This document shows, piece after piece, positions 3,265 through 58,208 of a DNA stretch of 64,000 bases. Position 1 is the stretch's first letter. Each line of letters begins with the position of its first letter. Under the pieces are notes generated by a model, which was not told where the DNA came from, made no database searches, and worked only from the letters and a program-made list of their open reading frames with translations. Source of the DNA: Cryoendolithus antarcticus (Eukaryota > Ascomycota > Dothideomycetes > Cladosporiales > Cladosporiaceae); assembly GCA_002077065.1 (NCBI GenBank), contig NAJO01000011.1:519001-583000 (forward strand), given 5' to 3'. A program made the position numbers and the translations under genes.

Positions 3265-4487
3265 ATGGCATCCAATGAGCACAAGCGTGCCGCATCCGAT
3301 ATTACATCGGACGACGAAGCGCCTGACACGAAGAAGCAATGCCGTCCGGCTCCCTCGGAGACCTCCAATGCTGAAGTAGGTGAGGGCGATGTGCCAATGG
3401 CGGGCTCCAGTACGATTGTGCAGAACTCGATCATGCCCACTGTCAGTGCTCCGCAGCCCGACAGCAACACAGCTAGCGCGCCTTCCGTGGCAACGACATC
3501 GACACACGGCTTCTTCGGGCCGCTCCCACAGGAGCTCGAGGACTTAATCGTCCAGTTTGCATACCACCGGGATCCGGCCATGAAGTTCACGACTTCCTCG
3601 AGCTGGGCAAGGCAAGAAGAGCAGAAGCGTAGAGGTACTCGTACCTACGTTGCGCTACCGTTTCCCGGCTACTTTGTGAGCCAGTGGCTCGTGTCGAAGC
3701 GCTACCTCATCGCAGCTGCTTCGGTTTGGTTCGGATCTGAACCGTTCGACTTCGCGCCGGGGCAGCACCCTCGCCGACCCGGCGCTCAGTCCATCAGTAG
3801 CTACGACTTCTCCGATTTGGGACTATTTCACGACTTTGTTATCGTCGTGAAAGACGATTTCTCAAGCGTCATGAGGTACCCATCGAAATGCAAGAGACTG
3901 ACGGAGCTGACCTTGCTGATGTATGAAGAGTGGGATTCAGGGGCGCGCCGTGGCAACAGGAAGTATGCCTGGCAGGAGCCTTTCAATGCCGCAGATTTCG
4001 ATGATATGCTCAAACGTTCAGATATGCTCTAGTTGCGTGGCTTCAAGAGCCTCAAGGTCGAATATATCCCTCCGAGGCCTGATTCGCTCCATGGCATACT
4101 GGTAAGACGGATGAAGAGCAGGCAATACTAGAGGCCAATACTCGGGATCTGGAGAAGCTACTCGGAAAGTTTGCTCTGCGACCAAAGTTTCCTACGCCAG
4201 TCGAGACCGAGACCGCGCCTCGTCCACTCTACTCCGGTTTTAAGGTCTTCTGGATGCAGCCTATGGAAGACGAGAAAACTGCGAAGGCCAAGGAGGACGT
4301 CAAGAGACTGGAGCGTCTTCAAAATGCGCTCGAAAGCGGAAGGTTGGCCCTCTCTAAAGAGATGCGGAAAGACATCGGATGGGAGGCGTCTATGCTGTAC
4401 ACTGTAGTCAGTGACCAGGGAGATGCGCTGCAAGAAGCAGAGTTCCCGTTGGAGGCGATGTTGAAGCTTGCGAAGTGGTACGTGTAA
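3265..4487 (+). pseudogene. unrecognised family, copy 1 (interrupted)
   Basis: I do not recognise a named family. The first 255 codons are open from ATG 3265 (context CATCATGG). They encode a polar N-terminal tail rich in acidic and basic residues, then a segment with LPQELEDLIVQFAYH, SSSWARQEE and FVSQWLVSKRYLIAAASVWF. TAG at 4030-4032 interrupts the frame directly before LRGFKSLKVEYIPP. The frame then shifts near 4105 into a coding-like stretch (KTDEEQAILEANTRDLEKLL...) that runs to the stop at 4485-4487. The copy at about 5.0-6.6 kb has the same order of motifs, so the two are tandem paralogs. The pattern, a short LPxEL segment followed by QWLxSKxY, resembles many lineage-specific fungal proteins of unknown role. 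An undetected intron could rescue part of the break, but no splice pair I tried restores the downstream frame. Confidence 0.6.
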
Positions 4488-45987: not shown

Positions 45988-47553
45988 ATGGTACAGCCTA
46001 CTCGGCCGCAGGCCGCCGTGCGCTCCTACACGACGACGGCATACAGTACAGGCTCCTCTTCAGCTACACTCACGGAGACGCGCAAGGAGCCCGCGTTCGG
46101 CTCGAGTCCCATGCAATGGCACCACGACATGCCCCGAGCACGGCAACGACGGAGACACTCATCTTATCAGCAGCGATCATGGAGCGCAGACCGGGAGAAC
46201 ATGGCATTACTTCTCGACCGATTTCTGGCAGACCTTGGTAGACGGCTGGAGATGATAGAGACGTACGGGCATTTGAAGATTGATGAGGGCGTGACGTGCG
46301 CTCTAAATTTACTTCATTCGGTTCACGAGAGCTGCGCGCACGTTGGAGATGAGGTACTCGACACCGGACGACGGAGAGCGAAAGTGCTGGTCGAGACAAT
46401 GGAAGAGCAGTACCAGAGCGCTCTTGCGACGAAGGAGACACTTGAGCAGAAAGTCCACGAGGGCATTCGCCTAGCTGAGAACCTGCTCTCAGACTTCGAG
46501 AAACGCGCTTACGACGTTCATCAAGCAGGCTTGAAAGCTACAGCAATAGACATGCTCGACTCCGGCAAGGCCCTTGGTCTAGCAGCCATAGACGACGCCT
46601 CCCACATAGCCTCCGAACTCATGCTCGAGTCCGCCGAGGCTGCGCGAAGAGCGAAGCTAAAAGTGCAGACCGCGATCGAAGAAGCCGTCACCCTAGCCCG
46701 CCGCCATGGTACGATACACTACCACCATCTACCCGAACCCTGGCGCGTAAACCCGCACATACTGAAAGGCTACCGCTTCAGCGAGAACAAACTCGAATGT
46801 ATACGCAGCACCTTCACGACATTTTCGAATGAGACCGTGAACATCTGGTCGCACTTTCTCGGCCTCCTGATCGTGCTATCAATAGCGTTCTATTTCTACC
46901 CCATCTCGCCTGCATTCAAGGAAGCCACGAATCTAGATATCTTCATCGCTGGCTGCTTCTTCTTCGCAGCCTGCAAGTGTCTGGTATGCAGCTGTATGTG
47001 GCATACCATGTCATCTATCTCTGATCAGACGCTGATGGAGCGCTTCGCGTGCGTGGACTACACCGGCATCTCACTACTCGTGGGTGCCAGTATAGTCTCG
47101 GTGGAGTACACGGCTTTCTACTGCGAGCCCTGGAGTCGCTGGATGTGGATCACGATGACCGGCATCTTAGGCATCACAGGCTCAGTCCTGCCATGGCATC
47201 CCCTCTTCAACCGTGCGGATCTAGCCTGGATGCGCGTCGCCTTCTATGTCACGCTCGCTACCACCGGGCTCTTGCCTATTGTACAGCTGACGATCGAGCG
47301 TGGCTATGATGAGATGGCAAGAGCGTATTCACCAATCGTGCAGTCCCTTCTGGTGTATCTCTCTGGTGCGATATTGTACGCTGCCAAGGTGCCAGAGCGG
47401 TGGCTACCTGGAAAGTTCGATTATGCGGGTGGAAGTCATAATATCTGGCATTTGGCAGTGCTGGGTGGGATATTATTCCACTACTCTGCCATGCAAGCCT
47501 TCTTCCGCGAAGCTTTCCGACGAGCTGAAGTCGAGGGATGCTCGGTTTACTAG
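45988..47553 (+). CDS. IZH3: PAQR/haemolysin-III family membrane protein, IZH3-type
   Basis: Seven-transmembrane PAQR protein related to yeast Izh3 (zinc/sterol homeostasis) and adiponectin receptors. Single exon, 521 aa. A long cytosolic N-terminus of about 250 residues, helical and charged (LLDRFLADLGRRLEMIETYG, KVLVETMEEQYQSALATKE), marks the IZH3 subtype. The PAQR core has FSNETVNIWSHFLG, the CSCMWHTMSSIS segment with the first metal-site His, DYTGISLLVGASIVSVEYTA, and the terminal GGSHNIWHLAVLGGILFHYS with the paired metal-site His. The name IZH3 rests on the long N-terminus; the substrate is unknown. Confidence 0.88.
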   Translation: MVQPTRPQAAVRSYTTTAYSTGSSSATLTETRKEPAFGSSPMQWHHDMPRARQRRRHSSYQQRSWSADRENMALLLDRFLADLGRRLEMIETYGHLKIDEGVTCALNLLHSVHESCAHVGDEVLDTGRRRAKVLVETMEEQYQSALATKETLEQKVHEGIRLAENLLSDFEKRAYDVHQAGLKATAIDMLDSGKALGLAAIDDASHIASELMLESAEAARRAKLKVQTAIEEAVTLARRHGTIHYHHLPEPWRVNPHILKGYRFSENKLECIRSTFTTFSNETVNIWSHFLGLLIVLSIAFYFYPISPAFKEATNLDIFIAGCFFFAACKCLVCSCMWHTMSSISDQTLMERFACVDYTGISLLVGASIVSVEYTAFYCEPWSRWMWITMTGILGITGSVLPWHPLFNRADLAWMRVAFYVTLATTGLLPIVQLTIERGYDEMARAYSPIVQSLLVYLSGAILYAAKVPERWLPGKFDYAGGSHNIWHLAVLGGILFHYSAMQAFFREAFRRAEVEGCSVY

Positions 47554-49033: not shown

Positions 49034-52000
49034 ATGGCAGACACAGCGGCAAGCAACGAGGTTGCCGTCCCAGAGAAGGACCACGACTACGGCACGCCGC
49101 ACCACGATGGCGACACCCACAGCACCGCCAACACGGTGCACCAGCGGCTGCGTGCTAATAGTACTATCATGCAGCTGAAGAAGATTTTGGTGGCCAACCG
49201 GGGCGAGATCCCGATCCGTATTTTCAGGACGGCACATGAGCTGTCGCTGCAGACCGTGGCTGTCTTCTCATATGAGGATCGGTTGAGCATGCACCGGCAG
49301 AAGGCTGATGAGGCGTATGTGATTGGGAAGCGGGGACAGTATACACCTGTGGCGGCGTATCTGGCTGGAGATGAGATCATCAAGATTGCGCTTGAGCATG
49401 GTAAGTCAGATGATTCGTATCGTGACTTCTGCGTGCTATCACAAGCTGCGCCTGCACATCACTCACCACTCAGGGCGCGCTTACTCCGGACTTCTTGGAC
49501 CTGCCTTCAACAATGCTGCAGATCTCTGGCATCTGCCTCTCAACCCTTTCGAGGCTTTCGACTGTTACCTTTCACACCCTCTCCACGCTGCTCTACCCAT
49601 CGGACATTGGCCAATACTGTCTCACGCTCACGCTCACTTCCCTGACCATACTCCATCACTTCGAGGCACTGAGTGAGCTCTTACAAGCTTCGCTGGTTTT
49701 GCACACTGCCGATCACCCTGCCGATCACGCTGTAAACAACGCATAGCCGCCTACCCTCACAGAGACGCTCAATTTGACCAGGTCAAATCATGGAGTCCAC
49801 CGAGACCGACATCTACCAGTACATCCTCTGGCTGTGTTGAAGTCTCCTCATCAGTACACCCGCCAATGTCAAGCATCCGGCCATGTCCATACTCATGGGT
49901 ACCGAAGCTGCTCTGGAGGCCCTCTTCACAGCGTCCTCTCTGTCTTTTGCTCCTGGTATTTTAGACGTTCTCCAGTCTGCTACTCCTCCCACGATTGCCT
50001 GGTTCAAGAGCTTGCCGACTGATGTCAGGAGGAAGTTTGGCATCTACCTGCTTGTGCTTGAGAAGCCTGGAGCACAACCACGCATCTACGTTAGCAGTGG
50101 GACGTCTGTGGTCGGTGTTTCTGGACGATGGCAACAATACGACGACGGGAAATGGACCCCTGCATACGTGCAGAAAGCTCTGGACAGCGGCTACACCATC
50201 GTGCACAAAGGCCCTCTCTGCTGGGCTCCCATGCCTTCATTGGGTAAACTCTACCCAGCACGCTGCCTTTTCCTTTTGCTGGAGACCATCTTCACCTTCA
50301 TCTTCTGGGCAATGGTGTCGCGCGAGAAAAGCTACGGAATGCCTACGATATGCCCCTGGACCCTGTCCGACCTTCCGTACGATGGCTGCTGTAACCATAG
50401 TCCACTCGTCGAGTGCATCCATGGCGAGGCGGAAGGTCTCTCAGCAGAGCAGATTAAGGTCAAAGAACTCGAGATTCAGGCACGGCGGAATGCGGCACAT
50501 AACGTAAAGTCCCACATCTTGAAGGCTACCGACTACGCTACCTGGAAGAGCAACCAGATAAAGTCCGCAGCTGTATCTGACCGGGTCAAAAAGGCCAACA
50601 GGCAAAACGGAACCTATCGCTGTACCACCTGCAATCTCAACTTCCCGGCACCGTCGAACCGCGACCGCCACTACCGGTCCGAGACACACAAGCAGAAGGT
50701 CGCCGGGACGTGGAAGCCTGAGGTTGTCAAGGATCCACAGCATCAGCGCTGGGTCGCTTCGAACAAGGCCAGCAAGCGCTACAACTGCACTACCTGCGAC
50801 AAGCCCTTCGTCAGTCAGCAGCACTTGGATCGTCACTGCGGCCAGGAGACGCACAAGAAGAAGGTCCTTGCCATGAAGTCGGCTGCGCAGTCGGCGGGCC
50901 CAAGGTCTTAGCTTGGTCCCAACTCTGCATACCAACGGCTTAGCAGAGTATCAATATCACGGCATCTCAGCAACCGCAGCACCTACGGCATGATCTTCTG
51001 TCACATTCCAACTTACTGCACCGCACCTCGCATCATCTACGACCACGTCACACCACAGGCCAACACGCCATACCATCTATGATGCACCACTCTGCAGTTT
51101 TGACCAGGTCGATACACGACCATAATGCTGGATTTACTCCGCTCATCGCATCTCCCCTCACAGCTTTCGTCATGTCATCTCAAACAAAACGACGGCATCT
51201 ACTGGCACGCACGACCTACTGTCGCAGCTCGATCACACTGTGTCAATCCTGGACCGTCATCTTTTCCTTTTCCTTACTTACAATCAACACACTGTTTACA
51301 CATATACTGACTTCTTCTTTCGGCGTCCAACTCGTACACCCTGGCTATGGCTTTTTGAGCGAAAACTATGAGTTCGCGAAGAAAGTGGAAGAGGCCGGAC
51401 TCATCTGGGTTGGCCCCTCCCCTGAGACGATCAACAGCCTCGGTGATAAGGTCTCAGCTCGTAAGCTAGCGCAGAAGTGCGATGTACCTTGCGTGCCTGG
51501 TACGCCAGGTCCAGTCGCCAAGTTCGAGGAGGTCAAGAGCTTCACGGACGAGCATGGCTTTCCGATCATCATCAAGGCAGCATTCGGTGGTGGTGGACGC
51601 GGCATGCGTGTGGTTTGGAAGCAAGAGGAGCTTCAAGACGCATTTGAGCGAGCCACATCCGAGGCAAAGTCGGCATTCGGCAACGGCACAGTGTTCGTCG
51701 AGCGCTTCCTCTACCGACCGAAGCATATTGAGGTGCAGCTGCTGGGGGACAACTATGGCAACGTCAGCCATCTCTATGAGCGTGACTGCTCCGTCCAGCG
51801 TAGACATCAAAAAGTCGTCGAGCTTGCACCAGCCAAGGATCTGCCGAAGGCCACTCGGGACGCCATCCTCAACGATGCAGTGAAGCTCGCCAAATCTGTC
51901 AACTATCGCAATGCCGGTACTGCAGAGTTCCTGGTGGATCAAGAGAACCGACACTACTTCATCGAGATCAATCCACGTATTCAGGTCGAGCACACGATCA

Positions 52001-54614
52001 CGGAAGAGATCACGGGCATCGACATCGTAGCCGCGCAGATCCAGATCGCAGCTGGTGCATCGCTGGAGCAGCTTGGCCTCACTCAGGATAGAATCTCGAT
52101 CCGTGGCTTTGCCTTCCAATGCCGTATAACAACGGAGGACCCCTCGCAAGGCTTCAAGCCGGATACAGGCAAGATTGAGGTCTACCGATCTGCAGGTGGT
52201 AACGGTGTCCGTCTCGACGGTGGCAATGGCTTCGCAGGCGCCATCATCACACCGCACTACGACAGCATGTTGGTCAAGTGTTCATGCCATGGCTCGACAT
52301 ACGAGATCGTCCGTAGGAAGATGCTCCGTGCGTTGGTCGAGTTCCGCATTCGTGGTGTCAAGACGAACATCCCCTTCCTCGCGTCTCTGCTCACGCACCC
52401 CACATTCATCGATGGCAACTGCTGGACGACCTTCATCGACGACACGCCCGAGCTCTTCAAGCTCATCGGCAGTCAGAATCGCGCACAGAAGCTGCTCACC
52501 TACCTTGGTGATTTGGCCGTGAACGGCAGCCAGATCAAGGGCCAGATCGGCGAGTCCAAGTTCAAGGGCGACATTATCATGCCTACCTTGACTGACGAGT
52601 CCGGCAAGACCATCGATGTCACCAAGCCGTGCACCGAAGGCTGGCGTAACATCATAGTTAAAGAGGGCCCGGAGGCATTCGCCAAGGCTGTCCGAGCGAA
52701 CAAGGGCACCTTGATCATGGACACCACCTGGCGTGATGCTCATCAGTCGCTGCTCGCTACTCGTGTCCGTACTGTCGATCTCCTAAACATTGCTAAGGAG
52801 ACCTCATACGGTCTCAAGAACGCGTGGGCACTGGAGTGCTGGGGTGGCGCAACATTCGATGTTGCTATGCGCTTCCTTTATGAGGACCCATGGGATCGTC
52901 TGCGCAAGATGAGGAAGGTCGTGCCCAACATCCCCTTCCAGATGTTACTGAGAGGTGCCAATGGCGTTGCGTACTCGTCTTTGCCCGATAACGCGATCTA
53001 CCACTTCTGTGAACAAGCGAAGAAGGCCGGCATGGACATCTTCCGCGTCTTCGATGCGCTGAACGATACTGATCAGCTCGAGGTTGGAGTGAAGGCAGTG
53101 CTGAAGGCTGGTGGTGTGGCTGAGGGTACCGTGTGCTACTCTGGAGACATGCTGAACCCCGAGAAGAAGTACAATCTCGAGTACTACCTCGCAGTGGTGG
53201 ATAAGATCGTCAAAATGGGCGCGCACATTCTCGGTATCAAGGATATGGCCGGTGTGCTAAAGCCAAGGGCCGCAACACTCCTCGTCGGTGCCATCCGCAA
53301 GAAGTACCCCGATCTGCCCATCCACGTACACACTCACGACTCGGCCGGCACTGGTGTGGCTTCGATGGTCGCTTGTGCCCAGGCTGGTGCTGATGCCGTC
53401 GACGCTGCGACTGATAGCTTGTCTGGCATGACCTCCCAGCCCTCAATCGGCGCCATCGTCGCCTCTCTCGAAGGCAGCGACCACGAGTCCGGCCTCAACT
53501 CCCACCACCTCCGCGCCCTTGACTCCTACTGGGCGCAAGTCCGTCTCGTCTACTCACCCTTCGAAGCCGGCCTTACCGGACCGGACCCCGAAGTCTACGA
53601 GCACGAGATCCCCGGCGGTCAGCTCACGAACCTGATCTTCCAAGCCTCCCAGCAAGGCCTCGGCGCGCAGTGGGCGCAGACAAAGAAAGCCTATGAGCAA
53701 GCCAATGATCTCCTTGGCGACATCGTCAAAGTCACGCCAACTTCTAAAGTCGTCGGTGACCTGGCGCAATTCATGGTCTCCAACAACCTTACCTACGACG
53801 AGCTCCTCAAGAAGGCACCGGAGCTGGACTTTCCCTCCTCTGTACTCGAGTTCTTCGAAGGTCTCATGGGTCAGCCGTACGGCGGCTTCCCTGAGCCTCT
53901 CCGCTCGCAAGCCCTACGTGATCGCAGGAAGATGACCAAGCGACCAGGTCTGTACCTCGACCCGCTGGACTTCGATAAGATCCGCACGAAGCTTCGCGAA
54001 CAGTACGGTGGCTGCTCTGAGACTGATGTAGCGAGCTACGCTATGTACCCGAAGGTCTTCGAGGACTACAAGAAATTCACGACCAAGTACGGCGACCTCT
54101 CTGTGCTGCCCACGAAGTATTTCCTGAACCGCCCGCAAATCAACGAGGAGTTCAGTGTTGAGCTGGAGAAGGGCAAAGTCCTCATCCTCAAGCTCCTCGC
54201 CGTTGGCCCGCTCTCGGAGCAGACTGGGCAGAGGGAGGTATTCTACGAGATGAATGGCGAGGTCCGACAGGTCACTGTGGATGATCAGCACGCTGCTGTC
54301 GAGAACACGAGCCGACCGAAGGCGGACACTGGCGATAGCTCGCAGGTTGGGGCGCCGATGAGCGGTGTGGTTGTCGAGATCCGGGTTAAGGATGGGAGTG
54401 AGGTGCAGAAGGGCGATCCGATTGCTGTGTTGAGTGCGATGAAGATGGTAAGTTTCTCGATCCTCTTTGCTGGGCAGGCGAGGAATGCTTTACTGACTTT
54501 GGCTCGCAGGAAATGGTCATCTCGGCGCCGCATTCTGGTAAGATCGGCTCGCTTGGCGTGAAGGAGGGCGACTCGGTGGATAGCCAGGATTTGGTGTGCA
54601 AGATTGTGAAGTAG
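49034..54614 (+). CDS. PYC1: pyruvate carboxylase
   Basis: Biotin enzyme making oxaloacetate from pyruvate and bicarbonate. Predicted model: join 49034-49400, 51323-54447, 54510-54614, 1198 aa, the normal length. Exon 1 ends in IIKIALEHG at a clean GTAAGT donor. Exon 2 resumes [20 protein letters not shown] in the correct phase, followed by the ATP-grasp loop [12 protein letters not shown]. The carboxyltransferase part starts [17 protein letters not shown], with metal-site [15 protein letters not shown]. The biotinyl motif SAMKM is split by the 62-nt last intron and continues [16 protein letters not shown]. The first intron is 1922 nt and holds a complete second ORF. Its 3' end reads TACTGAC, TTCTTCTTTC, then G|GC: branch site and pyrimidine tract are present but the AG is missing. 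Confidence 0.93.
49773..49784. repeat. 12-bp direct repeat, left copy
   Basis: TTTGACCAGGTC; extended by flanking bases it becomes a perfect 17-bp palindrome ATTTGACC-A-GGTCAAAT at 49772-49788. The right copy is at 51099-51110. Confidence 0.7.
49883..50911 (+). CDS. GIY-YIG-nuclease-like protein with two U1-type zinc fingers, nested in PYC intron
   Basis: 342 aa from ATG 49883, no internal stop, same strand as PYC. Residues 52-86 read [10 protein letters not shown] ... RIYVSSGTS ... GRWQQY: a GIY motif at 53-55, a Y-V-S variant of YIG at 69-71, and an Arg at 82 where the catalytic Arg is expected. E134 lies in a helix ([15 protein letters not shown]) as the metal-binding Glu does in the family. 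A Cys/His patch (CPW ... [13 protein letters not shown]) follows, then a charged helix. Two U1-type fingers are C247-C250-H263-H269 and C302-C305-H318-H324 (C-x2-C-x12-H-x5-H). Zinc fingers beside a GIY-YIG fold would suit a sequence-directed nuclease. I know of no experimentally named protein with this layout. The GIY-YIG call rests on motif spacing, so the fold needs testing; the fingers are firm. Confidence 0.7.
   Translation: MSILMGTEAALEALFTASSLSFAPGILDVLQSATPPTIAWFKSLPTDVRRKFGIYLLVLEKPGAQPRIYVSSGTSVVGVSGRWQQYDDGKWTPAYVQKALDSGYTIVHKGPLCWAPMPSLGKLYPARCLFLLLETIFTFIFWAMVSREKSYGMPTICPWTLSDLPYDGCCNHSPLVECIHGEAEGLSAEQIKVKELEIQARRNAAHNVKSHILKATDYATWKSNQIKSAAVSDRVKKANRQNGTYRCTTCNLNFPAPSNRDRHYRSETHKQKVAGTWKPEVVKDPQHQRWVASNKASKRYNCTTCDKPFVSQQHLDRHCGQETHKKKVLAMKSAAQSAGPRS
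51099..51110. repeat. 12-bp direct repeat, right copy
   Basis: TTTGACCAGGTC again, 188 bp after the stop of the nested ORF; the GACC-A-GGTC core is palindromic but the outer bases differ from the left copy. Confidence 0.7.
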
Positions 54615-54758: not shown

Positions 54759-57700
54759 TCACAGCATCTCCAGCCCGCCAACAAACCTTTCGAGCGCGCG
54801 CTCCGGGTTCTCATCACGCATCAGCTTGCCCGCTGCGTCTCCCAGAAACGCAAGCCGCCTCCTCCCCTCAGCGACTTCCATACTCTCACTCCTTTCCCCA
54901 GCCTCATCAATCAGACCCTTCGGCAGACCTGCCAGCTTCGCGACATTCAGACCATAGCTTCTATGTGCCACGCCCTCGCCGACCTCGTACAAAAACGTGA
55001 TATCCCTCTGCCCACTCTCATCCTCCTCCTGCTCCGTGAAGCGCATGTGTACATTCCTCAGCTCACCGCAGGGGTATCGCAAGGCGAGGCGGGCAAGGGA
55101 CTGGTAATGAGTGATGAAGAGAGTGAGGGGTTTGAGATCCGAGACGATGTGCGAGAGCACTGCTTGAGCGATAGCAACGCCGTCGTGTGTGCTTGTGCCT
55201 CGACCCAACTCGTCGAGGATTACCAAGCTACGAGGTGTGGCTTGCTTGAGGATATCTGAGGTTTCGCTGAGCTCGACCATGAATGTCGATTCGCCCTTCA
55301 TCATGTTATCGAAGGCGCCCATGCGCGTGAAGACTGCGTCTAGCAGGCCCAACTCGCAGGCGTCGGCGGGGACGTACGAGCCGATCTGCGCCATTATTGC
55401 TATTAATGCGACAGAGCGGACGTAGCTGGATTTGCCGCCCATGTTTGGGCCTGTGATGAGCAGGGCGCGCGTAGCAGACGAGGAGAGGGCGATGGAGTTT
55501 GGCACGAAGGCGTCTAGCAGGAGTTGCTCGACCATGGGGTGGCGGCCGTTGATGATCGAGATGCCTGTCTCGGGCATGAATGTGGGTTTGCAGTAGCCTG
55601 GCTGGGATGCGACGTCTGCTAAGCTAAGGAGACAGTCTAAAGTGGCGAGGGATTGCACGCAGTCCCGAAAAGCCTGGTAGCGGGCACCTATCTCACCCAA
55701 AAGGTCTGAGAACGCGGCATCGCAGGCATTTGCTAGGGCTTCTTTATGCTGATCGCGTTCTCGCAGCAGGCGGACGACTTCAGGAGCATGGTAGCGGGAG
55801 ACTTTCTTCGTGCCGCTGATCTTGGCCCAGGAGGCGGGCACGTGCTTGAGATTGGTGTTGTCGAGTTCGATGAGGAAGTCTATGCCACTCGAGGTAACGT
55901 ATTCAGGGATCTTCTGTTTGCATTTCTCGGCTGCAACTTTGCGGAAGTCTTCGAGATCTTGCTCTACGGCGACGATGCCGACTTTGTGGTCTTTGATGTC
56001 TTCTGTTTCGCTGGCTTCGGTGAAGAAGCCGTATTTGTCGTTCTCTTTTGCGTGGATCAGGCTGATACGCTCGAGATACTGCACTACGTCGTCGCCGATG
56101 CGTGGGAGAGATGCGACTGCTTCGGCGAGCAGCGGTGAGTTGAAATGAGTGTCCGTGGGTGAGGTGATATGAGCAAACTCCTGCGCGATCATCTGAAGAG
56201 ATTGCAGTACAGTCAGCAGCTCCGGCCGACCGCACTTCTTGTAGTAGATGCGGATCAGTGACTTCTCAAGATCGCCTCGTGTCTTGCCCAACAGGCGCTT
56301 GATGAGATCGACTGTCACCGTCTGCTCGCCATCCCTGAGCTCTCCCACTGCAGCAACTCGCTCATCGAGTCGTGTACGATCTAGCAACGGTCGACCAACC
56401 CACTTTCGTAGCAGGCGTTGGCCGAAGCGAGTATGTGTGCGGTCAAGAGTCCAGAACAGACTACCGCGCTCGGTGTGATCAGTCTGATTGAGGTAGATCT
56501 CGAGACTGGTCAACGTGTTGCCATTCAATAGCATGTGTGACCGCGCACTGAATGACTGAAAGTACTTGGTCAAGTCGAACACATGCTGGAGGCCGTACTC
56601 GGTCAAGTGAGTGATCATGGCAGACAAGCAAATAGTAGCGTTCTCAGACAGCTTATGGACCTTATCCAGTAGCGTGCCCGTCTCCTGCGAAGACTCTACT
56701 TGCGATGAAGTCGGCTGACCGGTCATCATCTTGTCGGCATAGAACTTCGTAATGTGACCATAAGACTGGGCTGCCATTGTCTTCGGCTTCTCTACTCGCT
56801 CCACTCGAGCGTTATCACCGAAGATGTTGGTCTTCGATGCCGACAAGTGCTTGACTAGCTTTTCGGTCGCCTTCGACACCTCGCCGACAATGAGCATCTC
56901 GCACGGTGCGATGTGCAGTAGCCGCGTCTCCAGCTCGCTGCGCATCCAGCCGTCTTCGAAGTCATCGTAGATGATGTCGCCCGTCGCCGGCTGGACTGCC
57001 ACAAGTCCGATCTGCACCTTCTCATCAGTACCCCAGCCTCGAGGGTATGTCTCTGTCAGGCACAGCAGATGTCCGGTGGCCGGAGAGCCGCCATCTGGCG
57101 CCGTGACAGGCGCTTCAAGGGCTTCTTGATCTTCGATATATGTGCCTTTCGTGTATAGATTTGTCAGACCACGCTCAAATGCCTTATTGCGAGTGTCACC
57201 TGCGGCCTTCAGTGCCGCCGTTTCCAGCTGCCGTACCACGCCAACCTTGTGACCGGCAGATACGAGACGCTTGACATGCACATGCAGTCGGTGTACTGGG
57301 ACACTTGCTGAAGCGAAGCGATCGATGTGTGCCTCTGAGGGATGCGGTGGGTCATCAAATCGATACCTGCCAGGTATGCACACAATGCTCAGCTCCTTTG
57401 CGGCTGCTTGAGCATCTGTGCCGAAGAACTTGAACTTGTATCCAACTTCCACAACGAGCAAAGTATCAGGATGTTTGTGCTTGATAGCCAGTACTTGCTT
57501 CTCGAGTGGAGTAAGCTTGTCGCGGCCCTTCGGTGCAGCAGCACCTTTCCGCCCTTTACTCTTTGGTGCTGGTTCTGGATCGTCCTCCTCAGCTTCCTCC
57601 CCCGCTTCCCCACCACCCTGTGTGTCCTCGCTGATGAAGTGATTCCGCCGCTTGATCTCTGCTATACTGTCGGGCCTGCCCAGTTTCTTCCTAAACTTCT

Positions 57701-58208
57701 GATGCAGTCTCTCCTTCAGTAGTCGAGTCTCCTCGTCATCATCAGGGTGCTCCTCGCCTGGCTGCGTCGCTAGACCAGAATTCGAGAAGAGGTACTTGGA
57801 CGTCCTTGCCGTCACTTTTGCTTTCCCTCCTGCTGAGCCATTGGTCGCCGCGAAAGTGCTGGCTGGTCGACTGTGTATCACGACATCATCGTCCTCCTGA
57901 TCTGATGCCGAGTCGTGTCTTACAGAGTTTGGTTGTGATCGCTTAGGATCTCGGTCCTCGTCGTCTACGTCCAGAGATCGCTTCTTTCCGTTCGACATCG
58001 GTGCACCACCATTCTGCTGAGTACTTGGCTCGTCGGTGTGCTCATGACTGGCAATGACCTGCTCTGGCTGAGATCGGACAGATGCCGTCGATATCTCCTT
58101 TCTCAAGGCCGGTGGCGCAGGAGGTCTCGAGAAGAAGTTGGAGATAGATTGTTGCTTCTTCGCCTGCGATGAGGGCGGCTGACTGCTGGCGACCTTTGGC
58201 AGTCCCAT
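54759..58208 (-). CDS. MSH3: DNA mismatch repair protein MSH3
   Basis: MutS homologue that with MSH2 forms MutS-beta, recognising insertion/deletion loops. Single exon, 1149 aa. The N-terminal tail carries a PCNA-binding box QQSISNFF (about residues 19-26). The mismatch-binding domain starts with [20 protein letters not shown] and [14 protein letters not shown], as in MSH3. The ATPase domain has Walker [29 protein letters not shown] and Walker [15 protein letters not shown], then FITHYQSL. Convergent with PYC (144 bp). An ACGCGT lies 81 bp upstream of the start. Confidence 0.96.

Follow-up and report, generated by a model that had tools for sequence, protein, structure and literature searches.

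The pyruvate carboxylase (PYC) gene of Cryoendolithus antarcticus raises the question of what a long, uninterrupted open reading frame (ORF) with the look of a nuclease gene is doing inside the first intron of a housekeeping gene. The window, a stretch of 64,000 nucleotides, was taken from an assembly of 47 Mb in 149 contigs, and the features of the locus are presented in Table 1. As had been read from the sequence at the outset, exon 1 ends at GTAAGT (..GAGCATG/GTAAGT, donor at 49401) and the PYC coding sequence picks up in phase at 51323, 1922 nt on. The 3' end of the intron reads ..TTCTTTCG/GC, with CG and not AG as the terminal dinucleotide; of the intron limits first proposed, the donor and the phase hold, and the acceptor is non-canonical. 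The biotin carboxylase N-terminal domain is interrupted by the intron, with profile positions 2-72 of 110 lying upstream and 76-110 downstream. In the NCBI record of the window ORF, a 456-aa C. antarcticus protein, PYC exon 1 is fused to the ORF. The genes adjoining PYC encode a haemolysin-III-type membrane protein (45988-47553) and a MutS-family mismatch repair protein (54759-58208).

Table 1. Features of the PYC gene and of its ORF-bearing intron (positions in the window)
Feature	Position	Strand	Detail
PYC exon 1	49034..49400	+	Biotin_carb_N profile positions 2-72 of 110
ORF-bearing PYC intron	49401..51322	+	1,922 nt; donor GTAAGT, end ..TTCTTTCG, no AG
Leader segment common to PYC and ATP2 introns	49704..49735	+	32 nt; 31/32 columns (97%)
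Palindrome TTTGACCAGGTCAAA	49773..49787	.	2 nt before ATG 49790
N-terminus remnant of nuclease family	49790..49840	+	16 codons, then TGA; relatives have Trp there
342-codon ORF	49883..50911	+	GIY-YIG domain, helical linker, two C2H2 fingers
GIY-YIG domain	50030..50419	+	residues 50-179
Palindrome copy	50576..50590	.	one mismatch; within ORF, between nuclease and fingers
C2H2 finger 1	50621..50689	+	
C2H2 finger 2	50786..50854	+	
Palindrome copy	51099..51113	.	two mismatches; after ORF
Branch-site-like CTGAC	51307..51311	+	starts 16 nt before PYC intron end
PYC exon 2	51323..54447	+	Pfam carboxylase domains

The anatomy of the encoded protein was found largely as the original prediction described it: the same-strand ORF is open over its 342 codons, both zinc fingers have the form C-x2-C-x12-H-x5-H, and Tyr55, Tyr69, Arg82 and Glu134 are all present. 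A tyrosine pair, an arginine and a glutamate have catalytic roles in GIY-YIG nucleases, and the corresponding columns are conserved in the family alignment (Y55 in 158/161 rows, Y69 in 159/161, R82 in 157/161 and E134 in 160/161). The glycine of the YIG motif is kept in 157/161 rows and is replaced by Ser in the window copy. The ORF starts at an internal ATG because the longer N-terminal frame of its relatives, which begins in the window with the ATG at 49790, runs into a TGA at 49838. The ORF is no product of chance: with its own NCBI record counted in, the window protein matches 89 proteins at E≤1e-3, and a profile search identified 298 proteins at E≤1e-5, the best 120 of which were listed. 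The statement that nothing else in the window resembles the ORF holds for the window itself, which yielded no second match, but there is a relative some 20 kb downstream, a short way beyond the window's end.

The AlphaFold model of the protein has a mean pLDDT of 93.5, and its predicted fold came out as GIY-YIG. When the GIY-YIG domain alone was compared by VIA-align, the top five rows of 933 re-examined chains were GIY-YIG enzymes, with scores of 9.6 and 9.5 for I-TevI, 5.7 for UvrC, and 3.6 and 2.8 for Slx1. VIA-align of the whole-protein model returned mostly zinc-finger rows, with no GIY-YIG chain among the matches listed, and plain Foldseek against the PDB, run with the whole protein and with the domain, had no hit at E≤0.001. 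In a viral structure library the top four rows were named as phage homing or intron-like endonucleases, a match that gives weak support because of its E values (0.008-0.024) and TM of about 0.2. In viral contigs the search pattern was found in 71 stretches, none of them a relative. The profile match to PF01541 that the original prediction had looked to did not appear: the window protein has none up to E 10, the profile is absent from the 25 listed of 85 families found with 43 relatives, and a search of the genome identified two other PF01541 loci only, with no member of the nuclease family. The fold and the catalytic residues nevertheless support a GIY-YIG nuclease domain in the window ORF, and on the same two grounds the ORF of these introns is predicted to encode a homing-type endonuclease. 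A Penelope-like retroelement with a GIY-YIG domain was considered and rejected; the longest intron ORF in the set of at least 100 aa is the 342-codon one, without a reverse transcriptase Pfam domain. Rfam gave no match in the PYC intron at E≤1 and none in 8 loci at the gathering threshold, so the ORF-bearing introns appear to carry no group I or II signature.

A genome search with the window protein, which the original prediction had put forward as a check, returned 12 matches: one weak, finger-only match and 11 in nine places. The eight other places are 29-46% identical to the window protein. Seven of the nine are introns between exons of conserved genes, identified from Pfam matches together with a reading of the splice sites, and the ORF is in sense with its host in 7/7. 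The introns measure 1,922 nt in PYC, 1,374 nt in the clathrin heavy chain, 1,481 nt in HSP70, 1,638 nt in EF-1alpha, 1,820 nt in PEPCK, 1,764 nt in ATP synthase beta (ATP2) and 1,327 nt in URA2, a name assigned here from CPSase and ATCase domains. A CT[AG]A[CT] branch-like site begins 14-22 nt before the 3' end in all seven. Plain GT-AG ends were observed in four (clathrin, HSP70, PEPCK and ATP2); the PYC intron ends in CG, that of URA2 ends in GG, and that of EF-1alpha starts with GG. In the EF-1alpha element (L017 positions 3829-3890), a short internal GT-AG intron splits the donor G/T, which in sequence looks like a split-donor twin intron, a type reportedly known in fungi. The remaining two places, C84:1070422 (L014) and C24:498917 (L018), resemble each other and share a TAG just before an internal ATG; no host exons were found in the 9.9 kb read around each.

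The state of these copies varies. Several genomic ORFs carry stops or frameshifts, and the domesticated descendant offered as an option in the original prediction finds no support; the EF-1alpha copy is open. The catalytic Tyr is changed in three intronic copies, at 55 in HSP70 and ATP2 and at 69 in clathrin. The leader segment of the PYC intron has its counterpart at intron positions 418-448 of ATP2 (L015), with 0 matches in each of 5 shuffled controls; this identity, despite the far-apart nucleases, hints at exchange between elements. In the HSP70 intron (L016, positions 153-185 and 858-890), a short stretch upstream of the ORF resembles part of the nuclease gene. Mapping host gene onto the nuclease tree required 8 changes against a shuffled mean of 7.3, with 11 of 20 inner branches unresolved. 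Site-specific nuclease lineages accordingly found no support, as host gene does not cluster on the tree.

A second copy of each of the seven hosts was identified in the genome, and the site is without the ORF in 7/7, the exon being continuous in four (clathrin, HSP70, EF-1alpha and PEPCK) and a short intron being present in three. The second PYC copy, on contig C46, has 99% protein identity over 1,033 residues, and a GT-AG intron of 79 nt occupies the position there, which speaks against the ORF being an ancient exon of all PYC genes. The second URA2 copy has a 56-nt intron within 1 nt of the site, and the second ATP2 copy a 53-nt intron 4 nt downstream of it that is missing from the occupied copy. 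The seven hosts, aconitase and a PF01541 locus are each present in two copies, and the PYC flanks are 85-89% identical in nucleotides. Such paired gene copies suggest that the assembly is that of a hybrid or of a diploid. In Cryomyces antarcticus, also an Antarctic fungus, partial duplication of the genome is discussed (PMC11412873).

Genomic context was read in C. antarcticus, and other fungi are known here from annotated protein models. A host-enzyme domain was found, from precomputed lists, in 8 of 153 retrieved proteins, including the window's own record, and the hosts fused in these eight models are PYC (2), aconitase (4), CPSase (1) and clathrin (1). Five further proteins are named cpa2 and have no host-enzyme domain. 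A search admitting long proteins identified a PYC fusion in Oculimacula yallundae (junction after RLDGGNGF), aconitase fusions in Zymoseptoria tritici (after IIEYH) and Elasticomyces elasticus (after ANACG), and a CPSase fusion in Glarea lozoyensis (before TTYNAST). The profile search added clathrin and aconitase fusions in Meristemomyces frigidus and an aconitase fusion in Vermiconidia calcicola, the aconitase models of these two species joining before QWDRRD. Since ANACGPCIGQWDRRD runs unbroken in the C. antarcticus aconitase protein, the aconitase junctions of three species fall within four codons of each other. The classes looked up were Dothideomycetes (C. antarcticus, M. frigidus), Leotiomycetes (O. 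yallundae) and Eurotiomycetes (Neophaeococcomyces mojaviensis, whose relative is one of the cpa2-named proteins). The fused models are annotation joins and not proven splices.

A palindrome recurs in the ORF-bearing introns. The exact form TTTGACCNGGTCAAA occurs at 6 sites in 47 Mb, 2 of them in these introns, and with ≤1 mismatch at 19 sites, 9 of them in these introns; the reversed-pattern control gave 0 exact sites and 1 with ≤1 mismatch. When seven palindrome regions outside the introns were compared as protein with the nuclease family, one 18-residue match was obtained (E 0.009). Outside the seven introns, an intron was seen by eye only at aconitase, inseparable from chance, and the palindrome was rejected as a general intron mark. 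This short aconitase intron (C74:223781; L025, L036) lacks an ORF and has an exact TTTGACCGGGTCAAA immediately behind its GTGAGT donor, and it is possibly the remnant of a lost element; the second aconitase copy (C35, L056) has a degenerate, partly kept palindrome. The palindrome might serve as an operator, loop out the ORF through RNA pairing, or mark a cassette boundary.

The last of these roles leads to an alternative in which the moving unit is not the intron but a palindrome-bounded nuclease cassette that enters pre-existing short introns as a transposon-like passenger. The EF-1alpha copy fits it, with one palindrome directly before the ATG and another overlapping the last base of the stop, as do the window palindrome 2 nt before the ATG at 49790 and the aconitase palindrome without an ORF. 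The second PYC and URA2 copies fit likewise, with a short intron that coincides with the site or lies 1 nt away, and the two PYC introns share GTAAGTCA at their beginning and TACTGACTT close to their end. The other copy is, however, intronless at the site in four of the seven hosts, so that the whole intron differs between the copies, and the second aconitase copy retains only part of the palindrome. We regard the cassette as unlikely.

The exon flanks bear on a further alternative. In clathrin, 42/60 nt are identical on each side of the site (84/120), against 848/939 beyond 240 nt (binomial P 4e-10). In PYC, exon 2 opens with 240 nt that match the second copy at 190/240 positions, and no other 240-nt window in the 3,060 nt compared is as low (mean 90.6%). 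No identity dip was observed on the exon 1 side (88-97% identity per 60-nt bin to the second copy, L051, over 531 nt aligned), and the clathrin test (60 nt each side) gave P 0.03 for PYC. The same test showed no dip in HSP70, EF-1alpha, PEPCK, ATP2 or URA2 (P 0.09-0.95), the alignable flank being short in EF-1alpha (138 nt upstream), PEPCK (1 nt downstream) and ATP2 (38 nt downstream). The dip was looked for after the fact; in clathrin and PYC it is the pattern that co-conversion would leave, and co-conversion at every site found no support, with a dip at only 2/7. It is very improbable that these are old introns, lost in the second gene copies (for example by a cDNA-mediated route) and holding passengers that no longer move. 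The 29-46% identity of the genome copies to the window protein, the several broken ORFs and a nuclease tree not tracked by host genes would agree with such an origin, but ORF-free copies stand at 7/7 sites, exon divergence concentrates at the insertion points in clathrin and PYC, and catalytic residues almost invariant over 161 rows need continued selection somewhere in the family. That the ORF was wrongly joined into PYC during assembly, where small errors are possible and the 3' splice site is not AG, can practically be dismissed: the arrangement recurs in seven host genes, other species' gene models join the same kinds of module, and PYC is syntenic with contig C46 to either side of the intron.

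The nuclear, intron-borne nuclease-type element of the original prediction is thus supported by seven intronic places, ORF-free host copies and fused models in other fungi. Nuclear genes of fungi probably harbour a family of spliceosomal homing introns, of which the window contains a single worn member. The anatomy of the element is well supported, being established by the sequence, the predicted fold, the catalytic residues, the intron positions, the hosts, the ORF-free copies and relatives in three fungal classes. We infer that the nucleases cleave DNA with target specificity, that the long introns are spliced out and home, and that the elements spread horizontally; mobility could proceed as follows. 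The element would be a 1.3-1.9 kb intron that the spliceosome removes, and it would carry a nuclease gene whose product joins a GIY-YIG domain like that of I-TevI to C2H2 fingers through a helical linker. The nuclease would be produced from the intronic or unspliced transcript, its zinc fingers would bind a site in a highly conserved exon, and the GIY-YIG domain would cut the empty allele. Repair off the occupied copy would then insert the intron, sometimes together with exon flank, and an essential gene would tolerate the element because splicing removes it; after fixation, the nuclease would decay. Several essential genes carry long introns, each with a gene for a likely nuclease, and so the introns have the appearance of genetic parasites able to spread themselves, as known to date from certain viruses. 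We lean, less firmly, towards the broader view that they are autonomous mobile spliceosomal introns of cellular eukaryotes, which home into conserved exons of essential nuclear genes, cross fungal species and classes, and leave new introns once the nuclease dies.

Several known systems resemble these introns in part. I-TevI, the nuclease of the phage T4 td group I intron, is the closest solved fold found and is likewise intron-encoded, with a nuclease domain and a separate DNA-binding part, but its intron is a self-splicing phage intron and the sequence identity is 15-16%. Fungal mitochondrial introns reportedly encode GIY-YIG nucleases as well; these are also fungal and intron-encoded, and differ in being organellar and self-splicing. 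Introner-like elements are spliceosomal introns said to multiply in fungi, Dothideomycetes among others. They are short and non-coding and occur in many near-identical copies, whereas the present elements are few and diverged (nine places, 29-46% identity), each with a nuclease gene, and an introner-like element was rejected. To our knowledge, homing endonuclease genes in cells' nuclear protein-coding genes are known only as inteins.

A close parallel is found in the mirusvirus "shintrons" (PMC12768974, November 2025), described as spliceosomal introns with GIY-YIG or other homing-type endonucleases in virion genes, an association stated there as unobserved until then. Like these, the fungal elements, as probable spliceosomal introns with a gene for a homing-type endonuclease, prefer certain conserved genes and have no group I or II signature. 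The fungal introns differ in lying in nuclear housekeeping genes and not in viral virion genes, and in having C2H2 fingers, a recurring palindrome and ORF-free host copies for comparison. Among the papers listed in the literature searched, mostly outside subscription journals, mirusvirus shintrons were the only case found of endonuclease genes in spliceosomal introns, and no report of such introns in cellular genomes was found; the term shintron was met in PMC12768974 and in one unrelated paper.

With the present finding, spliceosomal homing introns would have a version in cells, namely in fungi. In some current gene models the elements are concealed through fusion to housekeeping proteins. 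A single assembly of the duplicated C. antarcticus genome offers each host gene both with and without the ORF. If the introns home, a spliceosomal intron can, also outside viruses, be selfish and mobile DNA that brings its own enzyme, and a cellular counterpart or source of the mirusvirus elements would be suggested. Homing would also provide a testable route to spliceosomal intron gain, a long-standing question.
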